From NCBI GenBank assembly GCA_017481825.1, contig JAFUOR010000052.1, forward strand, positions 1-40,570: a stretch of 40,570 nucleotides of DNA, given 5' to 3'. The position numbers and the translations under genes were made by a program. Below, one piece after another: positions 4,469-34,992 of this stretch; position 1 is the first letter of the stretch, and each line of letters starts with the position of its first letter. The notes beneath the pieces were generated by a model. It made no database searches. It was not told the origin of the DNA and saw only the letters and a program-made list of their open reading frames with translations. This DNA comes from Clostridia bacterium. Its GTDB lineage: Bacteria; Bacillota; Clostridia; Christensenellales; Aristaeellaceae.

Positions 4469-5545
4469 ATGGAGCGCGTATACAACTTTTCTCCCGGCCC
4501 CTCGATGCTGGCTCAGCCTGTGCTGGAAAAGGCGCAGAAGGATCTGATGTGCTACGGCACGACCGGTATGTCCGTGATGGAGATGTCCCACCGCAGCAAG
4601 ATGTACACCGATATCTTTGACAAGACGGTGGCAGACCTGCGCGAGCTGATGAACATCCCCGAGGATTATGACGTGCTGTTCCTCCAGGGCGGCGCGACGG
4701 AGCAGTTCTCCGCCATCCCGCTGAATCTGATGGTGAACGGCAAGGCCGATTATGTGGATTCGGGCAACTTTGCCCACCTGGCTGCCGAGGAAGCCAAGCG
4801 CTACGGCGCGGTGAACATCGCCGCCTCCAGCCGTGCGGACAATTATACCTATGTGCCTGATCTGGCGGCTGCGAATTTCGACCCCGAGGCCGATTATGTC
4901 CACATCACCCAGAACAACACCATCTACGGCACCCGCTATACCGAGCTGCCCGATGTGAAGGCGCCCATCGTCTGCGACGCCTCCTCGATGATCCTGTCTG
5001 AGCCCATGGACGTGACCCGCTACGGCGTGATCTACGCCGGTGCGCAGAAGAACATCGGCCCCAGCGGCCTGTGTGTTGCGGTGGTCAGGAAGGATCTGCT
5101 GGGCAAGGCCAACAAGCTCTGCCCGAAGCTGATGAACTGGACCGTCCAGTCCGAAAAGGGCTCCATGTACAACACCCCCAACACCTGGGGCATCTACCTG
5201 GCTGGACTGACCTTCGACTGGCTCAAGTCCATCGGCGGTATCGACGCCATTCACAAGGTCAACGTGGAAAAGGCGCAGCTGCTCTACGACTTCCTGGATG
5301 AATCGAAGCTCTTCAAGGCCACGGCGCAGAAGAAGTACCGCAGCCTGATGAACGTCACCTTCGTCACCGGCGACGAGGCCAAGGACGCAGCCTTCGTCAA
5401 GGCCGCCGCAGCAGAAGGCCTGGTGAACCTGAAGGGCCATCGCACCGTCGGCGGCATGCGCGCCAGCATCTACAACGCCATGCCTGTGGACGGCGTGAAG
5501 AAGCTCGTTGCGTTCATGAAGGATTTCGAAGCGAAGAACGCCTGA
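4469..5545 (+). CDS. serC: Phosphoserine aminotransferase
   Basis: A 358-residue PLP enzyme, the normal length for SerC. It transaminates 3-phosphohydroxypyruvate with glutamate to O-phosphoserine, the second step of serine synthesis. The N-terminus YNFSPGPSMLAQPVLEKA is the family hallmark. GGATEQFSAIPLN is the cofactor phosphate loop region, and ITQNNTIYGTRY and CDASSMILSEPMDV (cofactor aspartate) follow. The Schiff-base lysine sits in YAGAQKNIGPSG (about residue 193). The C-terminal MRASIYNAMPVDGVKKL is also typical. AAGGAGG lies 9 bases before the ATG. Next on the same strand is serA, supplying the substrate, though a 247-base gap with a repeat separates them. No phosphoserine phosphatase gene (serB) lies in the window. 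Confidence 0.95.
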   Translation: MERVYNFSPGPSMLAQPVLEKAQKDLMCYGTTGMSVMEMSHRSKMYTDIFDKTVADLRELMNIPEDYDVLFLQGGATEQFSAIPLNLMVNGKADYVDSGNFAHLAAEEAKRYGAVNIAASSRADNYTYVPDLAAANFDPEADYVHITQNNTIYGTRYTELPDVKAPIVCDASSMILSEPMDVTRYGVIYAGAQKNIGPSGLCVAVVRKDLLGKANKLCPKLMNWTVQSEKGSMYNTPNTWGIYLAGLTFDWLKSIGGIDAIHKVNVEKAQLLYDFLDESKLFKATAQKKYRSLMNVTFVTGDEAKDAAFVKAAAAEGLVNLKGHRTVGGMRASIYNAMPVDGVKKLVAFMKDFEAKNA

Positions 5546-29043: not shown

Positions 29044-29298
29044 TTACAGGCGAACAACTTCGCCGCCCAGGTCTTCGATGACCCGACTGCATTTTTTCAG
29101 CGCATCCGCCGTTTCGCCTTCACCTTCGGTGAGGATGCACAGGTTCACCGTGCAGCTCTTGCGCTCGGAGAGGCAGTCGTAGAGCGCGTCGGCGTTGCAG
29201 CCGTAATGCTCCGGCAGGCCCAGCATCATTTTCAGGGCCAGGTGAAGCTCCCTGGCGGTGGCGTATCTGTCCGCATCAATGAAGATCCCCTGCGTCAT
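29044..29298 (-). CDS. Barstar-family protein, overlapping pyk
   Basis: An 84-residue protein with the barstar fold pattern: a first strand GIFIDADRY, a helix with REL-HLALKMMLGLPEHYG, the CNADALYDCLSE segment that corresponds to the barnase-binding helix/loop, a strand CTVNLCILTEG, and a final helix-strand ETADALKKCSRVIEDLGGEV. Barstar inhibits the secreted ribonuclease barnase by plugging its active site. No ribonuclease gene is in this window. The ATG lies inside the last codons of pyk (23-base overlap), so it is translated from the same message. The role could be inhibition of a distant barnase-like enzyme or an unrelated use of the fold. Confidence 0.8.
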   Translation of the reverse strand: MTQGIFIDADRYATARELHLALKMMLGLPEHYGCNADALYDCLSERKSCTVNLCILTEGEGETADALKKCSRVIEDLGGEVVRL

Positions 29299-31042
29299 TG
29301 GCGCTCACCGTTCCTTTCTTGCCGTCCAGCGTGACCACCGCGCCGGATTTGAGGATGTCCGTGGCGTGCTGTGCGCCGATCACCACGGGAATGTCGAGGG
29401 TCATGCCAGCGATAGCGCCGTGCCCCTCGGGGTTGGGGTCCTCCAGCACAAGGCCGGACGCCTTGCGCAGCAGCGCGAACATATCGCCCGTGGTCTGCTT
29501 GCACACGATGATATCGCCGGGGTCGAACTCATGGGCGTCCCGCTGGAAATCGCGGATGACGCACAATGGCGCGACGATGCGTCCGCCGTGAAGGCCCGCG
29601 CCCCTGGTCAGCAGATGGCCCACGACGTGTACCTTCATCAGGTTGGTCGTGCCGGAGATGCCCAGGGGCACGCCGGCGGTGAGCACCACCAATTCGCCGT
29701 CACGCACGATACCGGCGGCAACGGCGGCGTCCACCGCATGCTCAAAGAGGTCGTCCGTGTTGGATTCCTCGCCGATCATCAGCGGCACCGTACCCCAGGA
29801 GAGGGCCAGCTGCCGCCACACAGTGGGGCTGGTGGTACAGCCCACGATGATGCACCCGGGACGGTAGCGGCTGAGGATGCGCGCCGTGGAGCCGGACTTC
29901 GACACCGTGATGATGGCGCTGGCGTTGAGGTCATGGGCCGAGGTGACGGTGGCGTGGGAGATGGCGTTGGTCACATCGGTGGAGGTGGTGTTGGCGCGGG
30001 AGAAGCCGCGGATGTTCTTGATATCCGCCTCGGCGCGCAGGGCGATCTTGACCATCGTCTGCACGGCCTCCACGGGGTAGGCGCCCACGGCGGTCTCGCC
30101 GGAGAGCATGATGGCGCTGGTGCCGTCGTAAATGGCGTTGGCCACGTCGGTGGCCTCGGCGCGGGTGGGGCGGGGATTCTTGATCATGGATTCCAGCATC
30201 TGCGTGGCGGTGATGACCGGCTTGCCCGCCGCGATGCCGCGTTGGATGAGCTCCTTTTGCAGCGCAGGCACGTCCTCCAGGGGAACCTCCACGCCCAGAT
30301 CGCCGCGGGCGACCATCACGCCGTCCACCACGCGGAGGATCTCGTCGATGTTCTCAACGCCCTCCATGTTTTCGATCTTGGCGATGATGTTGATGGCCTG
30401 TCCGCCGTTCTCCTGCAGGATGTGGCGGATCTGCATGATGTCATCCGCGCTGCGGGTGAAGGAAGCGGCGATGTAGTCAAAGCCGTTTTCGATGGCAAAG
30501 AGGATATCGTTGTGATCCTTCTCGCTGATAAAGGGCATCGACAGATGCACGTTGGGGATGTTCACGCCCTTGTTGTTGCTCACCACGCCGCCGTTGTTGA
30601 CGCGGCAGATGATGTCATTGCCCTCGATCTTCTCTACCTGCATGCCGATCAGGCCGTCATCGATGAGAATGCTGCATCCGATCCTCACATCCTGGGGAAG
30701 ATCCTTATAGGTGATGGATACGCGATGCTCATCGCCCTCGACCTCGTCCGCAGTGAGGGTGAAGGTCTGGCCCGCATGCAGCGTGACCCGCCCCTCCCTG
30801 AAGGTGCGGACGCGCACCTCAGGGCCCTTGGTGTCCAGCAGCGTCGCCACGGGCAGACCCAGCTCATCACGGATGCGGCACACCTCATCGTGATACTGCT
30901 TGTGGCTCTCATAGGTGCCGTGGGAAAAGTTGAAGCGCGCCACGTTCATGCCAGCCTGCATCAGCGGGGCGACGAGCCCCTTTTCAAACAGGTTCGGCCC
31001 CATGGTGCAGACGATCTTGGTTTTGCGGATGGGGGTGTTCAT
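29276..31042 (-). CDS. pyk: Pyruvate kinase with C-terminal PEP-utiliser-like domain
   Basis: A 588-residue enzyme that transfers phosphate from phosphoenolpyruvate to ADP, the last ATP-forming step of glycolysis. It starts KTKIVCTMGPNLFEKG, with NFSHGTYESH and LLDTKGPEVR soon after. IAKIENMEGVENIDEIL holds the catalytic lysine and glutamate near 220; VARGDLGVE and the family signature ITATQMLESM follow. The allosteric domain is at about 355-470. Residues from 480 form the extra swivelling domain found in Bacillus-type enzymes (GHGAIAGMTLDIPVVIG). GGAGG lies 9 bases before the ATG. It is divergent from pfkA across a pseudogene; barstar is in the same operon. Confidence 0.96.
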   Translation of the reverse strand: MNTPIRKTKIVCTMGPNLFEKGLVAPLMQAGMNVARFNFSHGTYESHKQYHDEVCRIRDELGLPVATLLDTKGPEVRVRTFREGRVTLHAGQTFTLTADEVEGDEHRVSITYKDLPQDVRIGCSILIDDGLIGMQVEKIEGNDIICRVNNGGVVSNNKGVNIPNVHLSMPFISEKDHNDILFAIENGFDYIAASFTRSADDIMQIRHILQENGGQAINIIAKIENMEGVENIDEILRVVDGVMVARGDLGVEVPLEDVPALQKELIQRGIAAGKPVITATQMLESMIKNPRPTRAEATDVANAIYDGTSAIMLSGETAVGAYPVEAVQTMVKIALRAEADIKNIRGFSRANTTSTDVTNAISHATVTSAHDLNASAIITVSKSGSTARILSRYRPGCIIVGCTTSPTVWRQLALSWGTVPLMIGEESNTDDLFEHAVDAAVAAGIVRDGELVVLTAGVPLGISGTTNLMKVHVVGHLLTRGAGLHGGRIVAPLCVIRDFQRDAHEFDPGDIIVCKQTTGDMFALLRKASGLVLEDPNPEGHGAIAGMTLDIPVVIGAQHATDILKSGAVVTLDGKKGTVSANDAGDLH

Positions 31043-32141: not shown

Positions 32142-33203
32142 ATGAGAAAGATCGGCGTTCTGACTTCCGGCGGCGACGCGCCGGGCATGAATGCGGCCAT
32201 TATGTCTGTGGCCAAGAATGCGGCGCGCTTCGGCATGCCGCTGGTAGGCATCAAGCGCGGCTACAATGGCCTGCTGCGCCGTTCCACCAGCATCTATGAC
32301 GACCTGCAGGAGCTGCAGCTGGACACCGTGCTGGATATTGCAGACCAGCCCGGCACCTATCTGCGTACCGCGCGCTGCACCGAGTTCCTCGACCCCAAGT
32401 GGCGCGAGGTGGCCGTGAAGACCCTCCACGATATGGAGATCGACGGCCTGGTGGTCATCGGCGGCGATGGCTCGTTCCAGGGCGCCATGCGCATGTGCGA
32501 GCTGGGCATCCCCTGCATCGGCATCCCCGGCACCATTGATAACGACCTGGCCTACACCGAGATGACCCTGGGCTATGAGACCGCCGTGCAGGTGTGCACT
32601 GAGGCCATCCGTTCCATCCGTGCCACCAGCCGCTCCCATGACCGTCCCCACGTGGTGGAGTGCATGGGCCGTCACTGCGGCGATGTGGCCCTGAAGGCTG
32701 CCTGTGCCACGGGCGCGGAGATCGTGGTGGTGCCCGAGGTGGAGTGGAGCATCGAGGAGGTTGCTGCCCGGCTGAACAAGCAGATCGGCAAGGGCAATCC
32801 CCGTGCCACCGTCGTGCTGGCAGAGGGCTGCTGGGAATCCATGAAGCCCTTTGATATGTACGGCTTCCTGACCAGCCATGGCAAGCAGTGTTTCGAGGGC
32901 GAGCCCATGAGCGCTGAGCGCCTGGCCTCCATCCTCAAGCGCATGTGCGGTATGATCGAGGTGCGTTCCACCGTGGTGGGCTACACCCAGCGCGGCGCGC
33001 TCCCCGTGGCCAAGGACAGCGCCTTCGGCTTTGAGGCCGGCTATGTGGCGGTGAAGCTGCTGCATGACGGCATTTCCAACCAGGTCATCGGCACCCGTCA
33101 GGGCCGCGTGTTCCACATGGGCATTGAGGAGGCGCTGAAGGAGAAGCATACCTTCCGCCACGACCTGTACAACCTGGTCAACGATATCCGCATTGCGGAC
33201 TAA
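32142..33203 (+). CDS. pfkA: 6-phosphofructokinase
   Basis: A 353-residue enzyme that phosphorylates fructose 6-phosphate, the committed step of glycolysis. It starts KIGVLTSGGDAPGMNAAIM, with the ATP-binding glycine loop, and has GGDGSFQGAMR, where the second glycine of the GGDGS motif favours ATP over pyrophosphate. PGTIDNDLAYTEMTLGYETA carries the catalytic aspartate, and VVECMGRHCGDVALKA and GYTQRGA the substrate-binding region. The length is slightly above the 320 of classical PfkA. It is preceded by AAGGAG and followed by a strong terminator. With pyk across the pseudogene it forms a glycolytic cluster. The two cre-like sites suggest sugar control. Confidence 0.95.
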   Translation: MRKIGVLTSGGDAPGMNAAIMSVAKNAARFGMPLVGIKRGYNGLLRRSTSIYDDLQELQLDTVLDIADQPGTYLRTARCTEFLDPKWREVAVKTLHDMEIDGLVVIGGDGSFQGAMRMCELGIPCIGIPGTIDNDLAYTEMTLGYETAVQVCTEAIRSIRATSRSHDRPHVVECMGRHCGDVALKAACATGAEIVVVPEVEWSIEEVAARLNKQIGKGNPRATVVLAEGCWESMKPFDMYGFLTSHGKQCFEGEPMSAERLASILKRMCGMIEVRSTVVGYTQRGALPVAKDSAFGFEAGYVAVKLLHDGISNQVIGTRQGRVFHMGIEEALKEKHTFRHDLYNLVNDIRIAD

Positions 33204-33332: not shown

Positions 33333-33361
33333 TTGACAAAGGAGTTTCTACCAATTATAAT
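33333..33361 (+). promoter_or_regulatory. Consensus promoter of the OadB-like operon
   Basis: TTGACA (33333-33338) and TATAAT (33356-33361), both perfect, are 17 bases apart. Transcription should begin near 33368, a few bases before the aptamer. Confidence 0.92.
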
Positions 33362-33372
33362 GAAGCACGACG

Positions 33373-33467
33373 CCAGAGGGAGTAATCGGTACATATGATA
33401 CGTATGTGCAGCTGCATCGTCAATCCGGCCCTGTGCCCGGTGCAGCTTGAAATGATGAGACTCGTGG
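33373..33467 (+). promoter_or_regulatory. yybP-ykoY (Mn2+-sensing) riboswitch, aptamer part
   Basis: The order of elements matches the yybP-ykoY class. P1 pairs CCAGAG (33373-33378) with CUC-G-UGG (33461-33467), with one bulged G. GGAGUA follows (33379-33384), the conserved bases after P1. P2 is GUACAUA/UAUGUGC (33389-33395, 33403-33409). P3 is AGCUGCA/UGCAGCU (33410-33416, 33441-33447) and encloses UCGUCA (33417-33422), then AUCC, a GGC/GCC hairpin and CGG (33438-33440), exactly the UCGUCAAU...CGG internal loop of this class. AUGAGA stands before P1 closes, like the GCAAGA of Lactococcus. The usual P4 hairpin is missing. P1 overlaps the terminator, so ligand binding should prevent termination (ON switch). 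Confidence 0.82.
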
Positions 33468-33502
33468 ACAGTGTTGCATAGACTGTTCATGGGTCTTTTT
33501 TT
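33458..33502 (+). terminator. Riboswitch expression-platform terminator
   Basis: AGACTCGTGGACAGT (33458-33472) pairs with ACTGTTCATGGGTCT (33482-33496), 15 pairs including G-U, followed by seven T. The 5' arm contains the whole 3' strand of aptamer helix P1, so the two cannot form together. Confidence 0.9.
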
Positions 33503-33573
33503 CTCAGAACGCTTCTGGCCTTCCCGCTGCCGGTATGCAGCATCCCCATCATATTTCAGAGAGGATTGAGACC

Positions 33574-34782
33574 ATGGATTTCCAGAAGATTCTGACCGAG
33601 CTGTTCTCCGGCGTGGTCTATCTGGCCTCGGTGGAAGGTCTGAAGACCCTCGCTATGTTCATCATTGCGGGCGTGCTGATCTACCTGGCCATCAAGAAGG
33701 ACTACGAGCCTACGCTCCTGCTGCCCATTGGCTTTGGCTGCATCCTGGCCAACCTGCCTCCGGCCATTGACGCCATCACCGGCGCGATGGCGCCCTCCGC
33801 GCTGGGTGAGGCCGGCTTCCTGACCGTGCTGTTCAACGCGGGCATTGCCAATGAGCTCTTCCCGGTGCTGATCTTCATTGCTGTGGGTGCGATGATCGAC
33901 TTCTCCCCCCTGCTGAAGGATCCCTCTATGATCTTCTTCGGTGCTGCGGCCCAGTTCGGCATCTTTGCCACCTTCCTGCTGAGCCTGCTGCTGATCCCCG
34001 CCCTGCTGGGTGAGACCGATCCCGATCAGATCATGAAGCTGGCTTCCGCCATCGGCATCATCGGCGCGGCGGACGGCCCCACCACCCTGTTTGTGGCCAA
34101 CCACTTCCAGCTTAAGGATTACATGGGCCCCATCTCCGTGGCCGCGTACTCCTACATGGCGCTGGTGCCCGTCATTCAGCCCCCCTTCATCAAGATGTTC
34201 ACCACCAAGAAGGAACGCATGATCCGCATGGACTATCAGGAGGAGCGCTGCTCCAAGACCACGCTGATCCTGTTCCCCATCATCGTCACCATCGCGGCGG
34301 GCATCATCGTGCCCATGAGTGCGCCTCTGGTTGGCTCCCTCATGTTCGGCAACCTGATCCGCGAGTGCGGCGTGCTGGAGCGCCTCTCGAAGACCGCGCA
34401 GAACGAGCTGGCGAACCTGGTTACCATCGTGCTGGGTATCACCATCGGCGGTACCATGGTCGCTGACAAGTTCCTGCAGGTGGATACCCTGCTCATCATG
34501 GGCCTGGGCCTGGTGGCCTTCATCTTCGATACCGTGGGCGGCGTGCTCTTTGCCAAGTTCCTGAACATCTTCCGCAAGAAGAAGATCAACCCCATGATCG
34601 GCGCTGCCGGTATCTCCGCCTTCCCCATGTCCTCCCGCGTCATCGCCAAGATGGCCCTCAAGGATGACCCCAGCAACTTCATCCTCATGCAGTCCACCAG
34701 CGCGAACGTGTCTGGTCAGCTGGGCTCCATCGTGGCTGGCGGCATGGTGATCACCCTGGTGTCCATGCTGATCGGCGGCTAA
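33574..34782 (+). CDS. Na+-translocating decarboxylase beta-subunit family protein (OadB/GcdB/MmdB-like)
   Basis: A 402-residue integral membrane protein with about ten segments. LLPIGFGCILANLPP, the conserved aspartate region GIIGAADGPTTLFVANHF (about residues 165-182) and the late motif GAAGISAFPMSSRVIAKMAL (about 350-370) are hallmarks of the beta subunit that couples carboxybiotin decarboxylation to sodium export. ATG 33574 has AGAGG 9 bases upstream. No carboxyltransferase (alpha), biotin carrier or biotin ligase gene lies nearby, only a small OadG-like gene, so the partner is elsewhere or the protein has another job. Expression is probably under the Mn2+-type riboswitch, an unexpected combination. 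Confidence 0.88.
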   Translation: MDFQKILTELFSGVVYLASVEGLKTLAMFIIAGVLIYLAIKKDYEPTLLLPIGFGCILANLPPAIDAITGAMAPSALGEAGFLTVLFNAGIANELFPVLIFIAVGAMIDFSPLLKDPSMIFFGAAAQFGIFATFLLSLLLIPALLGETDPDQIMKLASAIGIIGAADGPTTLFVANHFQLKDYMGPISVAAYSYMALVPVIQPPFIKMFTTKKERMIRMDYQEERCSKTTLILFPIIVTIAAGIIVPMSAPLVGSLMFGNLIRECGVLERLSKTAQNELANLVTIVLGITIGGTMVADKFLQVDTLLIMGLGLVAFIFDTVGGVLFAKFLNIFRKKKINPMIGAAGISAFPMSSRVIAKMALKDDPSNFILMQSTSANVSGQLGSIVAGGMVITLVSMLIGG

Positions 34783-34797
34783 GAAAGGAGAAGAATC

Positions 34798-34992
34798 ATG
34801 AAGAAGCTGATTTCCGTCCTTCTGCCCCTGATGCTCGTGGGTACCGCCTTTGCTGAGGAGGCTATCTCCTACGCCAGCATGCCCCTGATGACAAAGGGCC
34901 TCATCGTGACTGCCGGCGGTCTGGCTGGCGTGTTCCTGGTGCTGATCCTGTTCTTCATCGTCATCAAGCTGATGCAGAAGGTTCTCAAGTAA
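34798..34992 (+). CDS. Small membrane protein, OadG-like
   Basis: A 64-residue protein, 15 bases after the OadB-like gene, with AAAGGAG 8 bases before the ATG. The start MKKLISVLLPLMLVGTAFAE looks like a cleavable signal, followed by a single membrane segment GLIVTAGGLAGVFLVLILFF and a basic end (IKLMQKVLK). Size, one membrane span and position after a beta subunit fit the gamma subunit (OadG family, PF04277-like), which stabilises the complex. It lacks the usual proline-rich, zinc-binding C-terminal tail. The shared riboswitch-controlled message suggests that both proteins act together. Confidence 0.65.
   Translation: MKKLISVLLPLMLVGTAFAEEAISYASMPLMTKGLIVTAGGLAGVFLVLILFFIVIKLMQKVLK

Follow-up and report, generated by a model that had tools for sequence, protein, structure and literature searches.

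A yybP-ykoY-type (Mn2+) riboswitch before an alpha-less OadB paralogue recurs across Clostridia

Inspecting a window of 40,570 nucleotides from a Clostridia bacterium (contig JAFUOR010000052.1), we find that the RNA leader at 33368-33503 is, by its sequence and predicted fold, a yybP-ykoY-type (Mn2+) riboswitch with a three-way junction and predicted ON logic. It precedes a gene for an OadB-like protein, the beta subunit of a decarboxylase-driven Na+ pump, and the pairing is found at 33 distinct loci in at least eight families of Clostridia. Wherever tested, the riboswitch marks an OadB paralogue that has no alpha subunit nearby, and in most cases a very small protein with one helix is encoded next. 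We lean towards the explanation that the Mn2+-type ON riboswitch controls both this OadB paralogue, which has no alpha subunit beside it, and the one-helix protein that follows, and that the orphan OadB takes part in Mn2+ export or ion balance. Since many Clostridia share this arrangement, the orphan pump probably has a part in coping with an excess of manganese or of a similar ion, most likely as a Mn2+-induced efflux protein that evolved from a decarboxylase pump.

Architecture and class of the leader RNA

The features of the locus, numbered from the first nucleotide of the window, are as follows.

33333..33361, + strand: promoter-like element (TTGACA at 33333-33338, 17-nt spacer, TATAAT at 33356-33361), found by eye
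33368..33473, + strand: yybP-ykoY-type aptamer, three-way-junction form, from models R1 and R2
33373..33378, + strand: P1.1 5′ strand, pairing with 33461-33467 with one bulge or mismatch, from an alignment of 11 leaders
33379..33384, + strand: L1 5′ strand GGAGUA, from alignments, read as GGGAGUA after the P1.1 5′ strand
33385..33387, + strand: P1.2 5′ strand, pairing with 33454-33456
33389..33409, + strand: P2 hairpin, 33389-33397 with 33401-33409, predicted fold
33410..33447, + strand: P3, 10 bp, 33410-33419 with 33438-33447, fold and alignment
33420..33426, + strand: L3 bulge UCAAUCC, 7 nt, enclosed by P3
33427-33429/33435-33437, + strand: stem inside P3, fold and alignment
33457..33467, + strand: L1 3′ strand (GAGA) and P1.1 3′ strand, common to the terminator; AGA precedes the closure of P1.1 at 33461-33467
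33458..33503, + strand: intrinsic terminator AGACUCGUGGACAGU..ACUGUUCAUGGGUCU-U(n), from sequence and predicted fold
33574..34782, + strand: orphan oadB-like gene, 402 aa, PF03977
34798..34992, + strand: 64-aa protein with a single helix (read by eye), resembling a gamma subunit in size and place alone

An earlier note, made from the letters of the window, had read the yybP-ykoY pattern in this leader, and the assignment is borne out: GGGAGUA with AGAC on the 3′ side of L1, P3 with its bulge UCAAUCC, and AGA all lie at the expected places, and covariation adds support. By position, A33422 in the bulge corresponds to the metal-contacting discriminator adenosine, A41 of L. lactis and A48 of X. 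oryzae, in a mapping made in this analysis. The L1 sequence GGAGUA is identical in 216 of the 218 leaders read, the remaining two being gapped at that place. In alignment A1, which holds 11 leaders under a structure drawn by hand, 88.8% of cells are paired and 16 of 27 pairs show two-sided changes, against a mean of 8.1 in shuffled controls (0/500 attain 16) and 4-7 in slid controls. The short P1.2 helix is paired in 100% of cells, with two-sided changes at all three pairs (AUC/GAU, ACC/GGU, GUC/GAC, GCU/AGC, GCG/CGC). The aptamer departs from the textbook four-way junction, as the P4 hairpin is absent from the fold and from the 11-leader alignment; a three-way yybP-ykoY member is reported in a review (PMC9495176), so this absence is not decisive.

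The predicted terminator hairpin at 33458-33503 has 15-16 pairs and a U-run (z -3.49), and none of 200 shuffles folds as stably. Its 5′ arm contains the P1.1 3′ strand, which agrees with the earlier claim that 33461-33467 is shared between switch helix and terminator and supports a predicted ON logic. By analogy with the class, Mn2+ binding between L1 and L3 would stabilise P1.1 and so keep its 3′ strand from starting the terminator hairpin; excess Mn2+ would then let RNA polymerase reach oadB.

We built two models, R1 and R2, from leaders; the window, a training row of both, scores 97.2 bits with R1 and 75.4 bits with R2. R2 also matches the validated E. coli mntP leader over its full length (34.4 bits, E 3e-8), which indicates homology to a validated member. 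The leader of E. coli mntP is missed by R1 and that of E. coli alx by R2; R1 gives alx only a 10.1-bit partial match. The check proposed earlier, a score against Rfam RF00080, fails as written, since the model gives no match to the window at E<=10 and its gathering score of 45 bits is not reached. The validated E. coli mntP leader itself scores 41.6 bits with this model, below the cut-off, as does the mntP leader of the window's own genome (20.6 bits). We therefore do not take the cut-off as defining, and reject the failed score as proof of non-membership. At its present cut-off, RF00080 can miss a short form of this class, one that is common among Clostridia. The SSRC10 model (RF02617) does match the window, at 37.4 bits (E 1.1e-5), below its gathering score of 56.

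That the leader is instead a Na+-I (DUF1646) riboswitch, another known class or a chance hairpin is very improbable. Some oxaloacetate decarboxylase genes do follow Na+-I riboswitches, according to PMC9337991, but the Na+-I model, suggested earlier as a control, gives no match to the window at E<=10, on which ground we reject that identity. Covariation, the breadth of conservation and the R2 match to E. coli mntP argue against this alternative as well.

Recurrence of the pairing and the genes under the same leader type

Scanning 80 named oadB loci (629 kb) with R1 located a leader in 13, in every case immediately upstream of oadB and in the same orientation, with no match at any other place; the other 67 homologues had no R1 match. 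Orthologues without the riboswitch occur in the same genus, several of them behind pfk. Among the 33 riboswitch-oadB leaders, the P1.1 strand lies inside the terminator in 29 by a strict test, one has a leader with no terminator, and promoter boxes of the kind seen in the window lie upstream of 21 by a strict regular expression. On a single quick-method OadB tree of 102 rows, from which near-copies and the short L128 were dropped, the riboswitch label requires 10 changes, at least six of them forced by starred branches.

The survey of downstream genes proposed in the earlier note did return OadB. Among the matches listed, 89 class-wide leaders were followed to their first gene, which was MntP in 27, a P-type ATPase in 26, CaCA in 16, OadB in 11, ABC in 5, and other or none in 4. 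For one of the 11 OadB loci (L257) the leader position was placed some 260 bases too far downstream, so that its OadB was read without its start; its class is unaffected. The unusual pairing first noticed in the window is thus recurrent, and we reject a one-off or chance pairing on the 13 of 80 named loci, the tree changes and these 11 OadB genes. The window's own genome carries sister leaders before mntP and before a P-type ATPase. In a separate sample of family leaders, 111 of 118 were covered; 23 of the 111 loci belong to none of the five named target groups, some of them possibly wrong-frame reads, and each group takes its name from a single representative. In three genomes of this sample strict filters gave no other leader.

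Most other members of the regulon are cation transporters: MntP, P-type cation ATPase, and Na+/Ca2+-exchanger-type and CitMHS-type permeases. Together with these, the orphan OadB, which is an elevator-type protein with a Na+ site and no longer lies beside an alpha subunit or biotin carrier, would act in Mn2+ export or in restoring ion balance. Most simply, as its place in the regulon suggests, OadB would be a Na+- or H+-coupled exporter of divalent cations. The recurrent Mn2+-type switch offers a handle on the function of OadB homologues without an alpha subunit nearby, which are widespread and match decarboxylase-subunit models, and opens that function to direct testing.

The orphan OadB and its possible partners

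The product of the downstream gene is PF03977 OAD_beta (E 2.1e-142), with PF03977 and TIGR01109 both above cut-off. ATG 33574 is a likelier start than ATG 33535, because orthologue alignments begin there. The 64-aa protein has no Pfam or NCBIfam match. The residues on which carboxybiotin decarboxylation and Na+ binding depend in OAD beta (E40, D203, R304, N311, S382, N412) are retained in the window protein, so by sequence the decarboxylase role is not lost, and we reject a simple loss of these residues in the window's orphan OadB. R304 and N311 are variable in other riboswitch-linked copies.

One alternative, which we consider rather unlikely, is that the orphan OadB has remained a beta subunit and serves as an alternative carboxybiotin decarboxylase/Na+ pump, borrowing its alpha subunit and biotin carrier from other loci. 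Mn2+ induction could then reflect a need for the Na+ gradient in Na+-coupled Mn2+ efflux, or Mn2+ could signal metabolic state. The retained residues fit this possibility, as does the wider genome. The earlier statement that no alpha subunit lies nearby holds at the locus, where neither alpha nor biotin carrier is seen beside the gene. On other contigs of the window genome there are part of an alpha subunit, a biotin carrier and another beta, and alpha is found elsewhere in all 22 riboswitch-OadB genomes tested. The corresponding count is 36/42 for other tested genomes with an OadB relative, and 40/42 versus 44/56 in the class sample. Three genomes (G312, G348, G351) have the orphan type as the only OadB found, together with a PYC_OADA gene. 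At the sequence level, 45 positions separate the orphan type from the canonical copies in the same genomes; the 15 of these that were checked are mostly MmdB-like, and most diagnostic residues are common to three MmdB-like (biotin-linked) rows.

Several observations weigh against a borrowed alpha subunit. The flanks (up to 4 kb) of all 13 named riboswitch loci contain no alpha or biotin carrier. A second OadB copy is present in 22/22 riboswitch-oadB genomes, in 18 on one contig with PYC_OADA and no more than about 3 kb from it, and in one (G231) adjoining a PF01039 gene. PF01039 carboxyltransferase was not found in 11 of the 22, the window genome included, which makes a PF01039-type alpha unlikely as a general partner. 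Two further genomes (G278, G325) have the orphan type and no match in the PYC_OADA search, and the other regulon members are, as noted, mostly cation transporters. At 21 loci with canonical copies, R2 detected no riboswitch on the canonical beta (44 kb with short upstream flanks; best 10.8 bits, E 0.7). If the favoured reading of orphan OadBs as exporters of Mn2+ or a related ion is true, an enzyme-coupled pump has turned into a stand-alone transporter.

The L3 loop and comparison with known systems

Over the 218 leaders, the L3 metal loop differs by target. OadB leaders carry GUCA in 33 of 36 rows (30/33 distinct loci) and CitMHS leaders in 17/18, whereas GUCA is found in 0/74 MntP leaders (AACA 69, GACA 5). 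ATPase leaders mostly have AACA (28/35; GUCA 6), and CaCA leaders are mixed (GUCA 13/23, AACA 8). The contrast holds within single genomes: in 8/8 genomes with both read, the OadB leader has GUCA and its sister MntP or ATPase leader AACA. Of the 36 OadB rows, 35 retain the discriminator A, and the exception, L128, reads AUCC in the alignment, likely an alignment slip.

This split raises the alternative that the GUCA-loop aptamer is a yybP-ykoY fold whose ligand response has changed, responding to another divalent ion (e.g. Ca2+) or to Mn2+ at another set point, with OadB serving that ion; we regard it as unlikely. Beyond the split itself, Sherlock and Breaker expect metal-specificity variants in the class, a three-way yybP-ykoY RNA of S. 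pneumoniae is described in the review (PMC9495176) as binding both Ca2+ and Mn2+, and the closest Rfam relative, SSRC10, adjoins a putative calcium transporter gene. Against this stand Mn2+-bound structures for both loop types, U39 C40 A41 in L. lactis and A45 A46 A48 in X. oryzae, together with the conserved discriminator A; the split also tracks target lineage and may be inherited. A broader proposal, which we put forward tentatively, is that alpha-less OadB and its one-helix partner form a new cation-exporter family, derived from the decarboxylase-driven Na+ pump and placed under Mn2+-type riboswitches several times, with GUCA and AACA marking two functional subclasses that occur side by side in one genome and differ in ligand or set point. 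For one of the most widespread riboswitch classes, the split by target also supplies a natural test of ligand variants inside single genomes.

The earlier note knew of no description of the riboswitch-oadB pairing, and none appeared in the literature searched, comprising the available portions of PMC9337991, PMC3766115, PMC7266159, PMC11477304, PMC2211319 and PMC9495176 among others, with the target lists of Dambach 2015, Price 2015 and Martin 2019 outside its scope. The Na+-I (DUF1646) riboswitch before pycB/oxaloacetate decarboxylase is similarly an ion riboswitch preceding decarboxylase genes, but is a different RNA class with no match in the window. SSRC10 has the same fold and a GUCA loop in its Rfam consensus; it differs in its neighbour gene, in the window's score below gathering, and in being filed as an sRNA. 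It is a Streptococcus RNA whose strand relative to the putative calcium transporter gene is left ambiguous by the probe statement of its paper. Perhaps it is the three-way yybP-ykoY riboswitch of mgtA. Salmonella OAD beta (PDB 6iva/6iww) aligns with the window protein at E 1.3e-91, with Na+-site and other essential residues retained, whereas the window gene has no alpha or biotin carrier nearby and its small partner no Pfam match. A further close parallel is yybP-ykoY itself (RF00080; E. coli mntP, L. lactis yoaB, X. oryzae): the window leader departs from it in its oadB target, its sub-threshold RF00080 score and its lack of P4, which E. coli mntP carries as an insertion, and shares with it the L1 GGGAGUA/AGA, the invariant A of L3, and a P1.1 switch strand common to the terminator with predicted ON logic.

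Structure and class of the leader RNA

The leader of the oadB-like gene is preceded by promoter-like boxes of its own, read from the sequence:

33333-33338 and 33356-33361: promoter-like boxes TTGACA and TATAAT, 17 nt spacer
33368-33503: leader RNA

The leader elements run in the order P1.1, L1 (GGAGUA), P1.2, P2, P3, GAGA (3′ side of L1) and the 3′ strand of P1.1; P3 consists of 10 bp, a bulge of 7 nt (UCAAUCC) and a short inner stem. The 3′ strand of P1.1 is also the start of a terminator of 15-16 pairs and a U-run; a P1 strand shared with a 15-pair terminator, as described in the earlier note, is seen in both sequence and fold. The leader folds 3.5 sd better than shuffles, and its helices are supported by covariation: across 11 leaders, 16 of 27 pairs show two-sided changes, against a mean of 8.1 after shuffling and 4-7 in the slid controls. 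Control (b) of this test is biased towards the window structure, because the leaders were aligned by sequence and the structure was taken from the window leader. All three P1.2 pairs are kept in 11/11 leaders, with two-sided changes in each.

An Rfam search of the window found no riboswitch at the gathering threshold, and RF00080, the model proposed earlier for scoring the leader, gave no match at E≤10. We do not take this result at face value because the RF00080 controls also fail: the validated E. coli mntP leader scores 41.6 bits, under the gathering score of 45, E. coli alx has no match at E≤0.1, and the scores are 20.6 bits for the window genome's own mntP leader and 29.3 bits for a leader upstream of a GDT1 gene. 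None of 13 riboswitch-oadB loci passes the RF00080 cut-off. The score of 45 is likewise missed by all 14 tested leaders of the window's kind. Of our covariance models, R2 (from 74 leaders, that of the window included) finds E. coli mntP at full length (34.4 bits, E 3e-8) and aligns its P4 hairpin as an insertion, window-type leaders having no P4. R1 (from 11 leaders) does not find mntP and gives only a 10.1-bit partial match to alx. The R2 match to mntP supports the yybP-ykoY assignment of the earlier note; the missing RF00080 match and the failure of R2 to find alx count against it.

The best Rfam match of the leader is SSRC10 (RF02617), at 37.4 bits, below the cut-off of 56. This family, filed as a Streptococcus sRNA, aligns with the leader over its full length. 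According to PMC3675131, SSRC10 is an S. pyogenes RNA between SPyM3_0439 and SPyM3_0440, a putative calcium transporter gene; there, signal from a 3′ probe is equated with the complementary strand, and therefore the strand of SSRC10 relative to the transporter gene is ambiguous. According to a review (PMC9495176), the S. pneumoniae mgtA yybP-ykoY RNA has a three-way junction and binds Ca2+ and Mn2+. We infer that SSRC10 is a three-way yybP-ykoY-type riboswitch, perhaps an Mn/Ca riboswitch filed as an sRNA, subject to this strand ambiguity.

Distribution and targets of related leaders

R1 was used to scan 80 named genome loci (629 kb) that carry the closest OadB homologues. The 13 leaders it found all lie immediately upstream of oadB and on its strand, with none elsewhere in these loci; among them is one from the complete Ca. 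Fermentithermobacillus carboniphilus genome. In the window's family, R1 matches occur in 91/200 genomes, and 111 of 118 leaders were traced to a gene (7 left out): MntP 47 (including the own-genome mntP, which served as query), CitMHS-type permease 18, P-type ATPase 9, CaCA 7, OadB 7 and others 23. Each target group was named from one representative, and several of the 23 others were not assigned. Across the class Clostridia, R2 matches occur in 155/291 genomes. A subset of 89 leaders (29 loci returned and 60 fetched) precedes MntP (27), P-type ATPase (26), CaCA (16), OadB (11), ABC (5) and other or no genes (4). These 11 loci belong to seven family codes (f42, f43, f44, f53, f58, f63, f85) besides the window's f1. 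Adding the 13 loci of f1, 8 of which fall in the window's genus, and 9 other named loci gives 33 distinct riboswitch-oadB loci.

In 98 genomes drawn separately, the full-length matches to OadB split into scores of ≥397 and ≤338 bits. The high-scoring, orphan type is present in 42/98 genomes, at least 9 of which carry an R2 leader up to ~350 bases upstream (coordinates compared by eye); no R2 leader precedes the low-scoring group among the matches listed. The open-licence literature searched yielded no description of a yybP-ykoY/oadB pairing, in line with the earlier note, nor of any riboswitch together with oadB. The one co-mention of yybP-ykoY and oxaloacetate decarboxylase was a Na+-riboswitch paper with the yybP term in its reference list.

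Three side observations concern other targets. The 18 family loci with CitMHS-type permeases (PF03600, named from L118; also L036 and L041) have mostly GUCA leaders, and these permeases are a second transporter family that merits testing with divalent ions. At L279 (G247:C60:4830-4932 and 4974-5072), two tandem riboswitches of the window's kind precede a P-type ATPase gene. At L112, L115, L126, L139 and L142, the riboswitch is followed by a 136-142 aa protein with no confident Pfam family.

The orphan OadB, its canonical counterparts and its history

The gene behind the window leader encodes a 402-aa OAD_beta protein (PF03977, E 2.1e-142; TIGR01109, 396.7 bits, cut-off 190.6), followed by a 64-aa protein with one helix (by eye) and no Pfam or NCBIfam match. 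As the earlier note had observed for the window, no alpha subunit lies nearby: neither alpha nor biotin carrier was found in the 13 named riboswitch loci (flanks up to 4 kb), and the flanks of all 80 named loci hold 0 alpha subunits, searched with a 250-aa C-terminal piece, and 4 biotin carriers. A small one-helix ORF (by eye) follows oadB in 12/13 named riboswitch loci and 9/11 class loci; the L183 locus stops at the end of oadB, and at L222 the small ORF lies 118 bases on.

In the window genome, the other OadB is cut by the end of contig C29 and comes after a gamma subunit (PF04277) and a biotin carrier; the C-terminal part of an alpha subunit sits at the start of contig C51. Every riboswitch-oadB genome tested (22/22) encodes PYC_OADA as well as a second OadB. 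The two lie within ~3 kb of each other on one contig in 18 genomes, on separate contigs in G000, G011 and G238, and ~275 kb apart in G231, where the second OadB is beside a PF01039 carboxyltransferase gene. No R2 leader was found at 21 canonical-copy loci (44 kb, upstream flank often short; best 10.8 bits, E 0.7). Riboswitch-linked and canonical OadB differ at 45 positions. At the 15 of these checked, class riboswitch-linked copies reaching them carry the window residue almost throughout, and most window-type residues recur in three MmdB-like rows.

The company of MntP, cation ATPase, CaCA, GDT1 and CitMHS in the regulon points to ion export for the orphan OadB. Alternatively, it could still be a beta subunit that uses an alpha encoded elsewhere. 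The window protein keeps the residues reported as essential in PMC7274780; at R304 and N311 other riboswitch-linked copies are variable. Alpha is encoded elsewhere in 22/22 riboswitch-oadB genomes and in 36/42 other genomes with an OadB relative, and in the class sample in 40/42 orphan-type genomes versus 44/56 others; the exceptions G278 and G325, with no PYC_OADA match, speak against a borrowed alpha. No OadB other than the orphan type was found in G312, G348 and G351. Weighing the kept decarboxylase residues and near-universal alpha against the regulon company, we give the borrowed-alpha explanation about a quarter of the weight and favor ion export.

Mapped on a quick-method tree of 102 OadB rows, which does not separate gains from losses, the riboswitch label requires 10 changes, of which starred branches force at least 6; shuffled labels require 19.4 on average. 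Six loci of the window's genus (L006-L010, L012) have no leader and carry oadB directly behind a pfk-like frame; the riboswitch may therefore have freed oadB from a glycolysis operon. In the window, a pfk gene (32142-33203) and, by sequence, a pyruvate-kinase gene (29276-31042) lie upstream of the leader. In riboswitch-less L006 and L008, the small protein after oadB has IGAADGPTSIFVAEQ or IGAADGPTSVFVAEQ, which nearly repeats the hairpin-tip motif of OadB, Na+-site Asp included; the window's 64-aa protein has no such sequence.

Loop types and switching

The L3 loop differs by target.

L3 loop by target, read from alignments of 218 leaders
Target: GUCA; other loops
OadB: 33/36 rows (30/33 distinct loci); L197 GACA, L189 GCCA, L128 AUCC
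CitMHS: 17/18
MntP: 0/74; AACA 69, GACA 5
ATPase: 6/35; AACA 28
CaCA: 13/23; AACA 8, GCCA 2
Other targets: 14/32

Pair 52-71 tends to shift from G-C to A-U along with loop type (191 rows). In 8/8 genomes with both leaders read (G000, G034, G061, G266, G271, G368, G436, G484; second leader of G332 left out), the OadB leader has GUCA and the MntP or ATPase leader AACA. The published Mn2+-binding loops are U39 C40 A41 .. U44 C45 for L. lactis (PMC9190785) and A45 A46. A48 U49 A50 C51 U52 for X. oryzae (PMC6754395); by numbering, in our own matching, the former is of the GUCA and the latter of the AACA type. Since both types bind Mn2+, the loop split alone is no proof of a new ligand. A within-genome partition by target would nevertheless be unexpected if both loops responded to one and the same ion at equal levels, and specificity variants are expected in the yybP-ykoY class, according to Sherlock and Breaker (2020).

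By a strict test, the terminator takes in the AGAC/P1.1 strand in 29/33 riboswitch-oadB leaders; in L029, L219 and L222 the hairpin is followed by a weak U-tract (by eye), and at L005 the aptamer is present and no terminator was found. Because the terminator includes the P1.1 strand, the predicted ligand would, on binding, turn the gene on. For the L. lactis and X. oryzae riboswitches, PMC9190785 and PMC6754395 describe stabilization of the P1.1 switch helix by Mn2+ at the expense of the terminator, and the same competition between P1.1 and terminator is predicted for the window leader.
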